From contig JAFDIS010000031.1 of NCBI GenBank assembly GCA_019307945.1, positions 1 through 32,645 on the forward strand: 32,645 nucleotides of DNA. Reading direction: 5' to 3'. The notes under the pieces were generated by a model. That model searched no databases and was not told the DNA's origin. It saw only the letters and a program-made list of their open reading frames with translations. A program made the translations under genes and the position numbers. This document shows positions 1 to 32,645 of the stretch, piece by piece. Numbering within the stretch: the stretch's first letter is position 1; every line of letters begins with the position of its first letter. The stretch is from Deltaproteobacteria bacterium (lineage in GTDB: Bacteria; Desulfobacterota; DSM-4660; Desulfatiglandales; Desulfatiglandaceae).

Positions 1-283
1 CTAGTCCGTCGCCCGGAGGCCTGTTCCGCCAACATGCTCTTTTCCTGTCTCGCACCTCGCATGCATTCGTGTCAACCCTCTTGAAGATTCTGACACCCAA
101 TCCCTGGAAAATCGGTTGACCTCGCCCCCCGGGGGCCGGTAAAAGCATTGAATGCATATTTCCCCGTGGAGATTCCGATCTTCCGGCGGCGGGACGGCTT
201 GCCTGTTCCCGCCGTCCGTCAAGAACTCCTTGAGGAAATACCGGGCCCCATGACCCGTCGACTTCCCTGGAGAGAGGAGCAAA
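1..283. other. 5' flank, no gene recognised
   Basis: I see no convincing coding sequence on either strand here. Frames open on both strands are GC-driven shadows of the downstream gene. A TTGACC hexamer at 116-121 could be a -35 box for the dehydrogenase gene, but no good -10 box follows at the right distance. A short inverted repeat (GGCGGG/CCCGCC) lies at about 187-223. Confidence 0.4.
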
Positions 284-1057
284 ATGAAACCCGAAACACT
301 GTTCAGTTTGAAGGATCGCGTGGCCGTAATCACCGGGGCCTCCTCGGGCCTCGGCGTGACCTTTGCAAAGGGCCTGGCCGAGGCCGGGGCGGCCGTGGTC
401 CTGGCAGCCCGGCGCAAAGAGCGCCTGGAGTCGGTGGCAGCACAGATCGAGGAACTGGGATCGGCGGCCCTTCCCGTGGAATGCGACGTAACCCGGGAGG
501 AAGATGTAGACCGGTTGGTCCAAACCACGGTAAATCGCTTCGGTCGGCTGGATGTGTTGGTGAACAACGCAGGCATCGCCGTGGTGGTCCCGGCGGAGAA
601 CGAAACCCCCGCCGATTTTCGCCGGGTCCTGGAGGTCAACGTCACGGCCGGCTTTCTCTGCGCCCGGTCCTGCGGCCGGGTGATGCTGGAGGCCGGGCGG
701 GGCAGCATCATCAACATTGCTTCCATCATGGGCGTGGTGGGTGTGGGGGCCCTTCCCCAACTCTCTTACAACACGTCCAAGGGCGCGGTGGTGAACATGA
801 CCCGGGAGCTTGCCGCCCAGTGGGCGAAGCGGGGCATACGGGTCAACGCCATCGCGCCCGGATTCTTCCCCAGCGAGATGACCGTGGGCCTCACCGACAC
901 GGAGGAGGGCCTTCGCTTCGTCCGACGGCGCACCCCCATGAGGCGAGCCGGCAGACCTGAGGAGCTCGTGGGCGCCCTGCTCCTGCTTGCCTCGGATGCG
1001 GGAAGTTACATCACCGGTCAAACGATCATCGTGGATGGGGGATGGACCTGCGTCTAG
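284..1057 (+). CDS. SDR family NAD(P)-dependent oxidoreductase
   Basis: A 257-residue classical short-chain dehydrogenase/reductase, the usual family length. The cofactor-binding motif TGASSGLG is at residues 17-24 and NNAG at 94-97. The catalytic triad is Ser147 (in NIASIMG) and Tyr162/Lys166 (YNTSK). The C-terminal segment carries the usual ASDAGSYITGQTIIVDGG. It should reduce a ketone or oxidise an alcohol in the cytosol; the substrate cannot be read from sequence, but 3-oxoacyl or cyclic alcohol substrates fit the acyl-CoA setting of the window. The ATG is preceded by GAGAGGAG. The next gene starts 87 bp downstream on the same strand, so the two may be co-transcribed. Family assignment is secure; substrate is unknown. 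Confidence 0.93.
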   Translation: MKPETLFSLKDRVAVITGASSGLGVTFAKGLAEAGAAVVLAARRKERLESVAAQIEELGSAALPVECDVTREEDVDRLVQTTVNRFGRLDVLVNNAGIAVVVPAENETPADFRRVLEVNVTAGFLCARSCGRVMLEAGRGSIINIASIMGVVGVGALPQLSYNTSKGAVVNMTRELAAQWAKRGIRVNAIAPGFFPSEMTVGLTDTEEGLRFVRRRTPMRRAGRPEELVGALLLLASDAGSYITGQTIIVDGGWTCV

Positions 1058-1144
1058 GGGGGAGGCCCGGCACCGGCCCTTGGATCGAATCGCCCCCCCA
1101 TCTGGCTCCATAAGACAAAAACCCGAACGGAGGTTTTACCCCGT

Positions 1145-2344
1145 ATGACCAAGCCACAGCACCAAGCACTCTTTGACCCCCTGGAAATAGGAAAACTTTC
1201 CATTGCAAACCGTATCGCCCTGGCCCCCACCCATGTGGGCATGGGGGATGAGCGGGGCATGGTGACCGACCAGTACCTTTGTTATTACTACGCCCGGGCC
1301 GCCGGGGGCGCGGGGCTCGTCATCGTGGAAATCACCGGTGTGACGGGTCGCTACGCCTTCGCCCCCGGCCGGGGGCTGGGCGCGGCTTCAGGCCGAAATC
1401 TTCCAGGTCTTCGGGACCTGGCGAGGGTGATCCACTGGGGAGGCGCCAGGGCCTTCATCCAATTGCTTCCCGGGCAGGGGGTTCAGGCCCTGGTCCCCCA
1501 CCAGGGCAGACCCCTCGTGGGCCCCTCGGACGTGCCCGCCCTCCTCCAGAAAGAAGACTTGCCCAAGGCCATGCGGGGGATTCTTCGGGAGATGCCCGAA
1601 CGGCCGCGACCCCTTGAAAGGGACGAAATCCACGGGTTGAGAGAAGCCATGGTCCGCGCAGGCGTGAGGGTCAAGCGGGCGGGCTTCGACGGCATCGAGG
1701 TGCACGGGGCCCACGGCTATCTCCTGGGCCAGTTCACCTCTCCCTACTTCAACCGCCGCAAGGACGAATATGGCGGCACACCCGAAAACCGGTGGCGGTT
1801 TTCCATGGAAATCATCAGGGATCTCAAGGAGGCCCTGGGAAAAGACTTCGTGGTGGGTTACCGATTCAGCGCGCGGGAAGGGATTGAGGGGGGCCTGGAG
1901 CTTCCAGAGGCTGTTGAAATGGCTCGAGCCCTTGAGGAGGCGGGGGCCGATTACCTTTCGGTGAGCAGGGGCTGCTACGGATCGGCGACCCATGTCTTCC
2001 CCCGAGGGGAAGACGAAATAACGGAGGACGCAGCCGCCGTGCGCAAGGCCGTATCCGTCCCCGTGATGTGTCCCAATTTCCAGAGCCCGGACCTGGCGGC
2101 AAAGGCCGTCTCCGAAGGCTCGGTGGATATGGTGGCCCTGTCCCGTGCCCTCCTGGCCGATCCCCTTTGGCCCACCAAGGTGAGGGAGGGAAGGCCCGAG
2201 CAGATCAGGCGCTGCAAGCGGTGTTACGGCTGTGTCAGGGACGCGGTCATCGACCACGTCCCCGTGCGTTGCCCGGTGAACCCCGCCCTAGGGTTCGAAC
2301 GTTTCGATCCGGGCTGTTTTCCCCGGCCGCCCGCTGAGTCGTAA
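1145..2344 (+). CDS. Old-yellow-enzyme / 2-enoate reductase-like FMN protein, short form
   Basis: A 399-residue TIM-barrel FMN oxidoreductase of the NADH:flavin oxidoreductase family. It has the N-terminal FDPLEIGKLSIANRIALAP segment, the HGAHGYLLGQFTSPYFNRR motif around residues 182-200 and DEYGG just after it. The C-terminus holds cysteines 357, 360, 363 and 376, placed like the 4Fe-4S ligands of 2,4-dienoyl-CoA reductase and 2-enoate reductase (normal spacing there is C-x2-C-x3-C-x11-C; here it is x2, x2, x12). The protein stops about 25 residues after the cluster, so the C-terminal FAD/NAD(P)H domain (about 270 residues) of those enzymes is absent. Either electrons come from a separate partner or this is a distinct short subfamily. 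It sits behind the SDR, and both could act on an unsaturated or cyclic acyl substrate. The ATG has CGGAGG upstream. Confidence 0.85.
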   Translation: MTKPQHQALFDPLEIGKLSIANRIALAPTHVGMGDERGMVTDQYLCYYYARAAGGAGLVIVEITGVTGRYAFAPGRGLGAASGRNLPGLRDLARVIHWGGARAFIQLLPGQGVQALVPHQGRPLVGPSDVPALLQKEDLPKAMRGILREMPERPRPLERDEIHGLREAMVRAGVRVKRAGFDGIEVHGAHGYLLGQFTSPYFNRRKDEYGGTPENRWRFSMEIIRDLKEALGKDFVVGYRFSAREGIEGGLELPEAVEMARALEEAGADYLSVSRGCYGSATHVFPRGEDEITEDAAAVRKAVSVPVMCPNFQSPDLAAKAVSEGSVDMVALSRALLADPLWPTKVREGRPEQIRRCKRCYGCVRDAVIDHVPVRCPVNPALGFERFDPGCFPRPPAES

Positions 2345-2358
2345 CGTACACACAGGGC

Positions 2359-4627
2359 CTACCGGCATACCCTGCCGAATTGCCGCGCAAGGGTCTCCAG
2401 GGAAGCGCCGGTGCCGCCGTCAGCAAAGGTTGCAAGGTCTTCGCCGTCGGTGTCGTCGTCCCGATCATAGTCCAGAGGACAGTCGTCGCAGACATCGCCC
2501 GCTCCGTCCCGGTCAGAATCGAGCTGGTCTTCGTTAGGGGTCCCGGGACAATTGTCCTCGTAGTCGCAAATTCTGTCGTAGTCGATGTCGGGCGCCTTCA
2601 CCACCATGTCCACCGTGGACGAGGTTCTTCCCGGACCGCAATCATTTATCGCCACCACCCGGTAGTAATAGACGCCGGGTTCGCACCCTCCGTTCAAGTG
2701 GCTGAAGGTCCTGGAGGTGCGATCCACGCTGTAGGTGGTGGGCCTGTCAAATTCCGGATTCGTTGCCTCCTGGATCATGTAGCCGGTGGCATCGGAAACG
2801 GCCGTCCAGCTCACCGTGTACTCCTGCCCCGGAAGTACGGATTTGCCCGGATCCGTGATGGAGGGAATCCCGGGCGCGACACAGCCTGGTTCCAGGCTTC
2901 GGGTGCCGGACCAAGCGCCGGACCCGCAGTCGTTGATTGCCCGCGCCTCCCACCAGTAGGTCTTTCCCTGGGTCAAGGCGGGGGTCACGGTCCAGGAGCT
3001 TTGGGTAGTGTTGGTGGAACGCGTGATCGTGGAGCAGTCGGAATCGAGGCATACTCGGACGTCATAGTCATCGGCTCCAGGGACCTCGTTCCACTCCAAG
3101 GTGGGTTCCGTGGGTTGACCTGTTGAGCCGTCTGCAGGCGACAAGAGTGTTGGTGCGGCAGGCCGTCCCGTCCCCCGGACCTCCATATCCACCGTATCGG
3201 ACCAGTCGCCGATGGTACAGTCGCTCTGGGCCTTGACCCTGTAGTAATAGGTGGTTCCCGTACACGCCACGTCCTGGTGGCTGAAGGTCATGGATGTTTC
3301 GGTCGTCGTATAGGTCGCGGTGGTGGCTTTTGTGAAGGCGGGGGTCGTGGACTCCTGTATCCAGTACTCGAGGGCGTCGGGAACCGAAATCCAGCTCACG
3401 GTATAGCCTTCTCCAGGATCCACGGAGATTCCTGGATCCGTGACATCCGGTGCGGTCAACTCCAGGCATTCTCCGGTGGTGAAGGTGTGTATGTCGCTCC
3501 AGGGGCCGAATCCGCAATTGTTTTCGTTCCGGATAAAGATCCCCTGCATCGGCCTGTCCCGTGCTCTCAATTTCCTCCAGACCGTCCGCCTCCATGAGCT
3601 TCAACAGCTTGTGCGTGGTGTAGGAATTGTCATAGGCAAACCCCGTGCCTTCGGCGTCCAGGGTGGCGTCCACGTGCCAGACGGCCAGGCCGTCCGGGGC
3701 AAAGTTGAGACTCTCGTCGTTGCCGGTGTCCTGGCGGTTTTGGACCAGGAAGAATTCGCTGAACATGTCGTCAAGACCGATCCCCGGCCACACAAGCACA
3801 CAGTCCGTGGTTGTGGTATCACCAAGGGTAATGGTGTGGACGCCTTCTGAAACGACCTGCGGTTCAATCCAGCCCAGGAGCCACTTGCTGAAGCAGTTGT
3901 GATCCCCGGTATTGGAATGCATCATGTCGAATCCGCCCACACCGCCTCCGGGGCCGATATATGGATTGTAATCATAGTAATCGGGCAACCCAAGGGCATG
4001 GCCCGTCTCGTGGATCACGACTTTTGGAAAGTCGGCCTCCCATTGCCAGGAATAGACCCCCGGGGTTTTCCCATCGATGGTATACGGGGCGCCTGTTTCC
4101 TCCCGCCATGAGGTTTCGTATGCCCACCAGAAAGACCCCCACCCGGTGTTTGGCCCGGTCCAGAAGACGACGAAATAGTCGATATCACCGTCGTTGTCGT
4201 TGTCGTACTGGCTGAAATCGTGTCCCTGGCCGTCAAGGTACTCCAGGACTTCCCGGATGAGGTCCTGTCGGCCTTGTCGGGTCTGCAGGACGTCGGAACG
4301 GGGATAGGGGGTTTGATACCAGGCGAACGTGGTCCCCCCGCTCAAATCGAGAAGGCCGTAAGATGATCGCAAGTAGTAATTTTTCAGGCTTTCACGGGGG
4401 TAGTCATCCGGATTTCCATCGCCGAACAACATCTCATCTATGACCGATCTCGGAATGGTATGGGGATAGTCGGCAAAGTTTATCAGAAGAGCGAAGATCT
4501 TGGGATTACCCGTGGTGGGAAGGCCCTCGGTGTCGTCCGCGGGCGGCACGAAATCATCGGACCCCTCACCCCCGCCGCTCGGCAAACCGCCTCCCTCGCC
4601 GGTCAAATCCCCCTCATCCTGGATCAA
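2359..4627 (-). pseudogene. M6-family metalloprotease with FN3 repeats, frameshifted and 5'-truncated
   Basis: The 5' part (frame 4627 to about 3533) encodes an M6/immune-inhibitor-A-like catalytic domain: zinc motif HETGH at residues 206-210, third ligand region LPDYYD, and FDMMHSNTGDHNCFSKWLLG behind it. At about 3535 the reading switches frame. The downstream frame (from about 3540 to 2359) encodes the last strand of one fibronectin-III repeat, then three FN3-like repeats and a calcium-binding thrombospondin-3-like tail ([21 protein letters not shown], then [11 protein letters not shown]). The sequence passes directly from the protease signature DAGDLY to the final FN3 strand NNCGFGPWS, so the start of the first FN3 repeat is missing as well as the frame: an out-of-frame internal deletion. 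At the 5' end the frame opens only from a TTG at 4627, with a stop five codons upstream and no signal peptide, unusual for a secreted protease. An intact homologue would be a secreted, surface-anchored peptidase. Confidence 0.82.
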
Positions 4628-30993: not shown

Positions 30994-32645
30994 ATGGATA
31001 AAACTCGATTACGCGAAGGTTGTGTCGTCATCGGCTCGCTTTTCAATGAGCCGATGCGCGTTGAGACTGTGCGGGTCGGTGGCCTGTCTGCGTGCGGTGA
31101 CGCACAGGCAGGCGACGCCACTTGGACTGTAGGCCTTGTCGGCACGCAGTCGGAGCGGTTCCGTAAGGTGACCCTCACCGACAGCGACATTAAAACTCTC
31201 ACTATCCTGGATTCCGCTTTCAGCTACGACGGGGACGGCCGTCTCCTGAGGCTGGGATTGCAGGCCTACTCCCTTGGCATCGCCTACGAGTTCGATCCTT
31301 ACTTTGGCCTCTCCATCTCGCGCGTTGACCCGCTGCCGCACCAGCTCGAGGCGGTATATGACTATCTCCTGAAGCTGGCGCGGGTACGGTTCCTGCTGGC
31401 CGACGACGCCGGAGCCGGAAAGACCATCATGGCCGGGCTTCTCATTCGGGAGCTTCAGCTTCGCGGCCTGGCAGAGCGCATCCTGGTCGTATGCCCGGCT
31501 AACCTGTCTTTCCAATGGCAGCGCGAGTTGAAAGAGAAATTCGACGAGAAGTTCCTTGTCCTCAAAGGCGGCGATATCCGCGACCAGTTCGGCGTCAACC
31601 AGTGGCTGGAACAAAACAAGGTCATCACGTCCCTCGACCTTGCCAAGCGGACGGAGATCTTGCCTGGCTTGAGGCAGGTCCACTGGGACCTTGTTATCGT
31701 GGATGAAGCCCACAGGATGTCCTGGACTCCGCCTGCACGCAAGACCGCACGGTACGCGCTCGGCGAGCTCATGCGAGATACATCAGACCACATGCTGCTG
31801 CTGACGGCAACGCCGCACAAGGGCGATCCGGACAACTTCACGCTGTTCCTGCAACTGCTCGACGCCGATGCTTACGCCGACGTACGTTCCATTAGGGAAG
31901 CCATGAATCGCCAACGCGCGCCGTTTTACCTGCGTCGTACCAAGGAGGCCATGGTCTACTTCCCTGCCTACCGCCCCGCTCCGCAGGACGGGGCAGGCAG
32001 GCCCGAGCGCAGACCTGACCTGTCTGCGTGCGGTGACGCACAGGCAGGCGGGACGTGGGTGGCTGAGAAGATATTCACCAAGCGCATTCCGCACACCGTC
32101 GATTTCCAGATGGACGGACCGGAGTTCGACCTCTACAGGGAGATTACCAGGTTCGTCAAGCGGCAGAGCGCCAAGGCCGCCAGGGCGGTCGGCTTCCTGA
32201 TGTCTCTTTATCAGCGTAGGCTGGCCTCCAGTACCTACGCCATGCGGCACAGCATGGAGAACCGCGCCCGGAGGCTCGAAGAAGGCCTTAAACGCGCTCA
32301 AGAGCTCGCCCGCATTGCCCCTGCCTGCGCCGCTGCCACCGGCGCGGCAGGCAGGCCACCTGACCTGCCTGATCCCGATGAACTCGAAGAGATGGAAGAG
32401 AGCGAACGCGAGCGATTGGAGCAGATGCTGGAGGCCATCACGCTTGCCGGGAATGCCGAGCAGGTGCGCGAAGAAATTGCAGAACTTCGCGGGCTCGCCG
32501 AGCAGGCCCGAGCTGTCGAGGAATCGGACTGCGAAGCTAAACTGTCCAAACTCCGGGACCTACTGCACAAGGAAGGGTTCTTTGATCATCAGGAACAACG
32601 TCTTCTTATTTTCACCGAGTTCAAGGATACGCTCGACTACCTGAT
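30994..32645 (+). CDS. SNF2-like DEAD/DEAH helicase of defence islands (partial, 3' end off window)
   Basis: The first 550 codons of a long SNF2-related helicase. The start ATG 30994 follows GGGTGGGAG. Walker A DDAGAGKT (Gly140-Thr144), DEAH box at 237-240 (IVDEAHRMS), LLTATPHKGDPDNF behind it, and an LLIFTEFKDTLDYL segment near the end mark the two RecA-like halves. Homologues I know of are helicases next to DUF1156 methylases or within DISARM-type systems; that partner would lie outside the window. Four palindromic insertions, all in frame, interrupt the protein at residues 31-40, about 324-336, 343-352 and about 443-454. Codon use (frequent CGC, TCG) and lower GC differ from the flanking chromosomal genes, fitting transfer. 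Confidence 0.88.
   Translation, partial: MDKTRLREGCVVIGSLFNEPMRVETVRVGGLSACGDAQAGDATWTVGLVGTQSERFRKVTLTDSDIKTLTILDSAFSYDGDGRLLRLGLQAYSLGIAYEFDPYFGLSISRVDPLPHQLEAVYDYLLKLARVRFLLADDAGAGKTIMAGLLIRELQLRGLAERILVVCPANLSFQWQRELKEKFDEKFLVLKGGDIRDQFGVNQWLEQNKVITSLDLAKRTEILPGLRQVHWDLVIVDEAHRMSWTPPARKTARYALGELMRDTSDHMLLLTATPHKGDPDNFTLFLQLLDADAYADVRSIREAMNRQRAPFYLRRTKEAMVYFPAYRPAPQDGAGRPERRPDLSACGDAQAGGTWVAEKIFTKRIPHTVDFQMDGPEFDLYREITRFVKRQSAKAARAVGFLMSLYQRRLASSTYAMRHSMENRARRLEEGLKRAQELARIAPACAAATGAAGRPPDLPDPDELEEMEESERERLEQMLEAITLAGNAEQVREEIAELRGLAEQARAVEESDCEAKLSKLRDLLHKEGFFDHQEQRLLIFTEFKDTLDYL
31083..31114 (+). repeat. In-frame palindromic insert 1 (helicase residues 31-40)
   Basis: Palindromic 30-base core encoding LSACGDAQAG. 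The 32 bases 31083-31114 are identical to 32019-32050, and bases on both sides differ, so the two copies are separate insertions of one element. Confidence 0.85.
31963..32001 (+). repeat. In-frame palindromic insert 2
   Basis: Hairpin with CCTGCCT/AGGCAGG outer arms (31963-31969, 31995-32001) and GCCCCG/CGGGGC inner arms (31973-31978, 31989-31994). It encodes part of PAYRPAPQDGAGR. Same outer arm sequence as insert 4 but a different loop. Confidence 0.75.
32019..32050 (+). repeat. In-frame palindromic insert 3 (helicase residues 343-352)
   Basis: Exact second copy of the 32 bases at 31083-31114, again read in frame as LSACGDAQAG. It lies 17 bases after insert 2. Confidence 0.85.
32320..32355 (+). 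repeat. In-frame palindromic insert 4
   Basis: CCTGCCTGC (32320-32328) and GCAGGCAGG (32347-32355) are 9-base arms. It encodes an Ala-rich block (ACAAATGAAGR) between RIAP and PDLPDPDELEE, in a spot where I expect homologues to run straight through. Confidence 0.75.

Follow-up and report, generated by a model that had tools for sequence, protein, structure and literature searches.

In-frame palindromic insertions in a candidate anti-phage helicase gene and their putative full-length relatives bearing a GIY-YIG nuclease

Introduction

What kind of DNA enters one helicase gene four times without breaking its reading frame? The question is raised by the end of the window, the whole stretch of 32,645 nucleotides analysed here from a deltaproteobacterial genome. 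The 5' part of hmaA lies at positions 30994–32645 of the forward strand (PADLOC HmaA, E=2e-96; Pfam SNF2-rel_dom); its frame is cut at 32645 by the end of contig C15, and its product is the N-terminal half of a helicase of the SNF2 type. The best match of this gene is HmaA, the helicase of the candidate anti-phage system Hma, a candidate defence system present in 26 phyla (PMC8565338). When the operon was checked, the HmaA model was matched, the contig was found to end within hmaA, and hmaB and hmaC were found at the start of contig C107 of the same genome.

Four insertions in hmaA

All four inserts are on the forward strand. Insert 1 (31083–31112) is a 30-bp palindrome of the T type, CCTGTCT(GC)GTGCG-GTGA-CGCACAGGCAGG, that adds the peptide LSACGDAQAG. 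Insert 2a (31963–32001) is a palindrome of 39 bp, CCTGCCT(ACC)GCCCCG...CGGGGCAGGCAGG, that adds the peptide AYRPAPQDGAGRP, and is followed by insert 2b (32019–32048), a 30-bp T-type copy identical to insert 1. Insert 3 (32320–32355) is a 36-bp palindrome of the C type, CCTGCCT(GC)GCCGC...GCGGCAGGCAGG, with the peptide PACAAATGAAGR. The reading frame of hmaA is kept by each of the four (30, 39, 30 and 36 bp). The initial annotation had described an exact 32-bp sequence occurring twice in the gene; the two copies are indeed identical, but the element itself is a 30-mer, and the last two bases (CG) of the shared run belong to the target that follows it. The sequence GCAGGCAGG occurs four times in the window, three of them inside hmaA, against 0.55 expected, and four occurrences were reached in none of 100 shuffles; thus, the hmaA inserts exceed chance. 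The predicted structure of the window's HmaA (pLDDT 53) is too uncertain for placing the inserts.

The same sites were observed to be empty in close homologues. In L025 (genome G053) and L026 (G018) all four inserts are missing and the sites are empty to the base; L027 (G048; ~96% nucleotide identity) and L032 (G005; ~95%), which span the first insert site only, are empty there. Insert 2a is also absent from L322 and L326, and the site of insert 2b, empty in L025 and L026, holds GIY-YIG elements in L322, L326 and L337. One empty site reads GGTGG^CGAC at the DNA level; at the protein level, FP^ERRPD^GTW in the window stands against FPERQPDGM in G018. The hmaA DNA of the window is 95–96% identical to that of L027 and L032 across different genera and families of the order, a sign of recent horizontal transfer.

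The claim of four in-frame palindromic insertions thus held in full: all were located, all keep the frame, and all are missing in the closest homologues. Homologues carrying the same segments at the same sites, named in advance as evidence against insertion, were looked for, and the nearest ones have empty sites. The palindromes are confirmed as true insertions that are in frame and repeated in the genome, and the proposal of a selfish repeat tolerating coding sequence was graded plausible.

Anatomy of the element

The element consists of CCTGYCT, a bulge (usually GC), a variable stem, a loop, the second stem strand and AGRCAGG. Over 14 types, 18 cells of the inner stem were found to have changed on both sides, with 100% of cells paired, a covariation as high as which was seen in 0 of 500 shuffles; the hairpin fold itself is therefore maintained, and not just the sequence. 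Insertion before C is preferred (65 of 80 sites), and the flanks are otherwise mostly unrelated. Comparison of empty with filled sites revealed no target-site duplication beyond chance end bases. A GTAG tag next to the hairpin was found at 1 of 124 copies, and CGTC near an end at 8 of 124 against 5.8 expected. In two loci (L055 and L129), the loop of one element contains a second element from the same palindrome family, and in an Opitutia MAG (L122, L125, L127) the element lies repeatedly between GGACAWTC and CTGTCC, as if within another repeat.

In a list of Pfam- or PADLOC-confirmed genes compiled by hand, 32 of 32 copies (27–42 bp) have a length that is a multiple of three. Genic and intergenic copies do not differ significantly in this respect (p 0.35), because the intergenic copies are mostly multiples of three too. 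Short copies sit mostly between genes, where no in-frame requirement acts, and their length there counts against the explanation preferred below.

Spread within the genome and across phyla

A search for the repeat in the whole genome and in related genomes had been suggested, and copies were found in both. The window's genome contains about 35–40 copies (35 covariance-model matches), with 22 perfect-arm palindromes against none for the backwards pattern. Among 61 relatives, 0–40 copies were found per genome in a patchy distribution, the element being present in 32. An exact 30-mer of the palindrome family was found in no fewer than 116 contigs of GTDB genomes, which by their record titles represent about 25 phyla and include archaea (Altarchaeum and ANME-1); nearly all carriers are MAGs, and single host assignments may be wrong. 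The 30-mer was found in nine IMG/VR contigs, and a search of IMG/VR for the GIY-YIG relative described below returned none. Phages and plasmids yielded no convincing copy of the 30-mer, and their GIY-YIG genes are ordinary ones only.

Host genes

Copies in confirmed genes lie mostly in restriction-modification, BREX or Hma genes. Further hosts in the window's genome are hmaB and hmaC (contig C107), a second hmaA-like gene (C119) and hsdS (C110), and the hmaB of G018 lacks the inserts found in the hmaB of G000. In loci picked by the element alone and not by gene, genic copies were found in hmaB/hmaC (L150), hsdR (L289), hsdM (L258), a type IIG enzyme (L099) and brxC (L302); the hsdS of L062 has a clean insertion of 10 residues relative to plasmid homologues. 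The few genic hosts outside defence are a dehydratase subunit, a phage portal, a TPR protein, a helicase and a transposase. Defence genes account for 6 of 11 genic copies (p ~3e-7, assuming a 3% share of defence genes, our own estimate). The initial annotation had pictured an element in a helicase of a phylum other than that of Rickettsia; the lineage is indeed different, but the spread is far wider, covering some 25 phyla and concentrated in anti-phage defence genes. PDB alignments of the host genes gave weak support.

The brxC of L302 belongs to a BREX system on a 59.5-kb IMG/VR contig classed as viral, and it carries two in-frame palindromes. Other insertions were noticed in hmaB genes. The hmaB of L150 (3708–7181, reverse strand) contains a complete in-frame Y1 (IS200-type) transposase with its own flanking repeat, GGCACAGGCTTCCAGCCTGTGG / ACACAGGCAAGATGCCTGTGCC; it is the second mobile gene inserted in frame in this hmaB. 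In the hmaB of the window's genome (L172, positions 1–3753), a DUF559 nuclease domain lies in frame between the peptides PSPSGRGWREAPGEG and PSPLTPLPKGEG, which resemble another repeat family; this insert is missing in the G018 homologue.

Full-length elements with a GIY-YIG nuclease

Is there a longer element from which the short palindromes could derive? In the first case, the hmaB of L150, an in-frame GIY-YIG domain was found between the two halves of a C-type palindrome. When 1.59 Mb of loci were searched for long palindromes bounded by such arms, seven were found, of which four (L062, L312, L324 and L326) are GIY-YIG elements of 282–297 bp, all multiples of three and open throughout; the reversed-sequence control gave none. 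Further full-length copies have the same ends (L315, equivalent to L150, and L337, L338, L367, L369, L370 and L377) or less clean ones (L322, L368, L371 and L372), and alignment-based searches added copies from Planctomycetota, Aminicenantes and the window's own phylum. The single-contig genome G225 contains one of the full-length copies (L367).

Full-length elements are 279–297 bp long and have the palindromic ends of the short copies; their whole length is one open frame that lacks start and stop codons of its own, and the nuclease domain is their only cargo. All are oriented like the host gene and read in its frame. They match Pfam GIY-YIG with E-values down to 3e-17, and the nuclease model has a GIY-YIG fold (pLDDT 87), its nearest structures being UPF0213 proteins and Slx1. 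Such palindromic ends were found in none of 79 control loci (Y1 transposase, HmaA homologues), and most stand-alone ordinary GIY-YIG genes are without them. The association of GIY-YIG genes with nearby short elements was weak at first and became meaningful only after the half-palindrome test. In the window's genome, such a GIY-YIG gene was not found, the sole GIY-YIG match being a 614-residue frame that resembles UvrC. For the most abundant short type (CCTGTCTGCGTGCGG...), no full-length version is known; its putative link to the nuclease rests on the shared arms, the bulge and one shared insertion base.

The hosts of the full-length copies are hsdM (one site in L312, L324 and L377, another in L062), hsdR (one site shared by L370 and L371), hsdS (L338), hmaB (one site shared by L150 and L367, another region in L222, L368 and L372), a PD-(D/E)XK gene (L369) and hmaA (L322, L326 and L337). 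In hmaA, the GIY-YIG elements of an acidobacterium (L326), a deltaproteobacterium (L322) and a planctomycete (L337, where the nuclease has an internal stop) lie at the exact base of insert 2b (...GA^CCTG...CAGG^CGG), a site that is empty in G018 and G053. The hmaA host proteins share 79–90% identity, without the filled ones forming a group; the nuclease tree separates the three hmaA copies, and a forced single clade was rejected (p-AU 0.00025). It follows that different lineages entered this one base of hmaA at least two times, and that a short palindrome entered it as well.

Alternative explanations

Could the short copies have been moved by another enzyme? They may be REP-like hairpins that a Y1 (RAYT/IS200-type) transposase moves in trans in single-stranded form, in which case the GIY-YIG domain would be a passenger. 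Much of the anatomy would suit such a mechanism, namely a hairpin with a conserved asymmetric bulge and a covarying stem, a size of 27–42 bp, the lack of target duplication and the insertion before C at 65 of 80 sites; Y1 genes are common in these genomes, and a complete one lies in frame within the L150 hmaB. However, a perfect-arm element was found within ~1.5 kb at 0 of 30 Y1 loci of element-carrying genomes, the GTAG tag stands at a single copy in 124, Y1 in the window's genome is limited to 30-residue fragments, and among the relatives its presence (55 of 61) fails to follow that of the element (32 of 61). The Y1 gene of L150, moreover, bears a different flanking repeat. A RAYT/Y1 helper was rejected for want of linkage to the palindromes, and this mobilisation is considered unlikely. 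Gene families recurring near elements in 116 loci form mainly housekeeping-type clusters with no common helper. A check for a helper transposase had been proposed; the candidate helper is instead a nuclease of the homing-endonuclease type. Alternatively, the inserts may be relics riding on the horizontal transfer of defence genes, each left once by the in-place deletion of a GIY-YIG element, without any short copy ever moving alone. Such relics would fit insert 2b, which lies on the very base that full-length elements occupy in further hmaA genes, and the ~96% DNA identity of the helicase between taxonomic families, which shows that the genes do travel. Against this origin, which we regard as improbable, stand the recurrence of the same 30-mer at two places in a single gene, the many intergenic copies, the copies nested in copies (L055, L129), and a 30-mer found unchanged, amid unrelated flanks, in no fewer than 116 contigs from many phyla.

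Two further readings were weighed. Peptide or RNA features conserved for a role would be consistent with a frame that is always kept and a hairpin that is maintained, but the same sites are empty in close homologues, the same DNA is also intergenic, and in different frames it yields unrelated peptides (LSACGDAQAG, CLRAGTHRQ, LPVRARTQTG) in unrelated proteins, which makes a conserved function extremely unlikely. An artefact of assembly or binning might be suspected where nearly all carriers are MAGs; against this stand base-precise in-frame inserts with orthologous empty sites, long contigs, a full-length copy in a single-contig genome and the same architecture in independent projects, and we give an artefact hardly any credence.

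A proposed origin and its significance

The four inserts of hmaA are probably short, non-autonomous members of a mobile family that crosses phyla and has a nuclease-bearing full-length form. The precise in-frame insertion, the shared ends, the nuclease-only cargo, the re-use of one hmaA base and the concentration in defence genes are evident at the sequence level, from which mobility is inferred. In the proposed mechanism, the family would be defined by its ends, CCTGYCT-(GC bulge)-stem palindromes, and a full-length element would be translated as an internal, unspliced GIY-YIG domain of any host protein that it enters in frame. The nuclease may cut empty target sites or the extruded hairpin, and repair would then copy the element into the cut. 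Short copies would arise by internal deletion of full-length elements and be moved in trans. Within genes, selection would retain only copies whose length is a multiple of three, which permit both translation of the nuclease and survival of the host protein. The preference for defence genes probably reflects their tolerance and their passage between phyla. Slx1 is a structure-selective nuclease acting on branched DNA (PMC8287910, PMC9071465), and an Slx1-like fold would, speculatively, fit the recognition of an extruded palindrome. Against the preferred explanation stand the absence of such a GIY-YIG gene from the window's genome and the most abundant short type, for which no full-length version is known; homing also accounts better for re-occupying one site than for spread to many sites.

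If this proposal is true, a self-propagating element would live in genes with neither introns nor inteins, as a tolerable insertion in proteins. A helper would be named for dispersed palindromes, which is still open for CGTC repeats such as Rickettsia palindromic elements (RPEs); recurrent Ala/Gly/Gln-rich peptides in metagenomic proteins would be explained; defence genes would prove to be preferred carriers by which selfish DNA crosses phyla; and compact nucleases of a new kind, each with a defined insertion site, would become available.

Comparison with known systems

What distinguishes these elements from described families? RPEs are palindromic in-frame insertions in unrelated protein genes, to which they add peptides (review PMC10969869). 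The likeness to RPEs put forward in the initial annotation was upheld as regards in-frame palindromes inside protein genes of another lineage, but not in size or tag: RPEs are ~150 bp long with a CGTC tag, whereas the present elements are 27–42 bp, have no CGTC/GTAG tag, occur in some 25 phyla with a preference for defence genes, and have nuclease-bearing full-length relatives. REP/RAYT REPtrons comprise GTAG/CGTC families (PMC3733652); REPs are likewise small hairpins with paired stem changes, and some lie in genes, a few of them at the same site in orthologues. Unlike REPs, the present elements have no GTAG/CGTC tag and no linked RAYT, are identical across phyla, and show an in-frame bias. 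MITEs are also short inverted-repeat elements that share ends with a longer protein-coding element, whose autonomy would here be presumed; they differ in that the present family shows neither target-site duplication nor a transposase from any known transposon family, and its longer element consists of a single reading frame. Slx1/UPF0213 GIY-YIG nucleases share the predicted fold and are the closest structural matches to the modelled domain, but are stand-alone proteins of repair or unknown function that are not known as mobile.

GIY-YIG homing endonuclease genes, introns and inteins (PMC3943268) offer another comparison. The nuclease of the full-length relatives, though not the window's short copies, belongs to a homing family, and the same hmaA site is filled in some orthologues, empty in others, and re-invaded by different lineages. 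In contrast to homing genes, introns and inteins, no intron or intein is involved, the domain, as far as can be judged from sequence, stays in the host protein, and the palindromic ends also exist as short dispersed copies. An intein, which needs Cys/Ser first, a His-Asn end and Cys/Ser/Thr after it, was rejected, since the elements have the form (D)LPAP...RQAG and the next residue is G, E, N or P.

A search of open-access PMC literature found neither a paper giving these DNA or peptide sequences for an element of this kind nor a description of a GIY-YIG domain with palindromic in-frame ends. By tests of their hallmarks, RPEs proper, REPs and inteins are excluded, and the testable features of homing endonucleases were found in the full-length relatives. 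The individual components, in-frame palindromes and homing nucleases, are already known; none of the families examined by their hallmarks accounts for the composite, and in-frame palindromes together with their GIY-YIG versions point to a hitherto undescribed kind of mobile element. It appears about as likely as not that they form a mobile DNA class of their own, made up of homing elements that are in frame and splice-less, each a palindrome-bounded GIY-YIG domain with neither start nor stop, which would be expressed only as a domain of the host protein, re-invade fixed sites in defence genes across phyla, and be the source of very many coding-compatible palindromes of 27–42 bp in Bacteria and Archaea.
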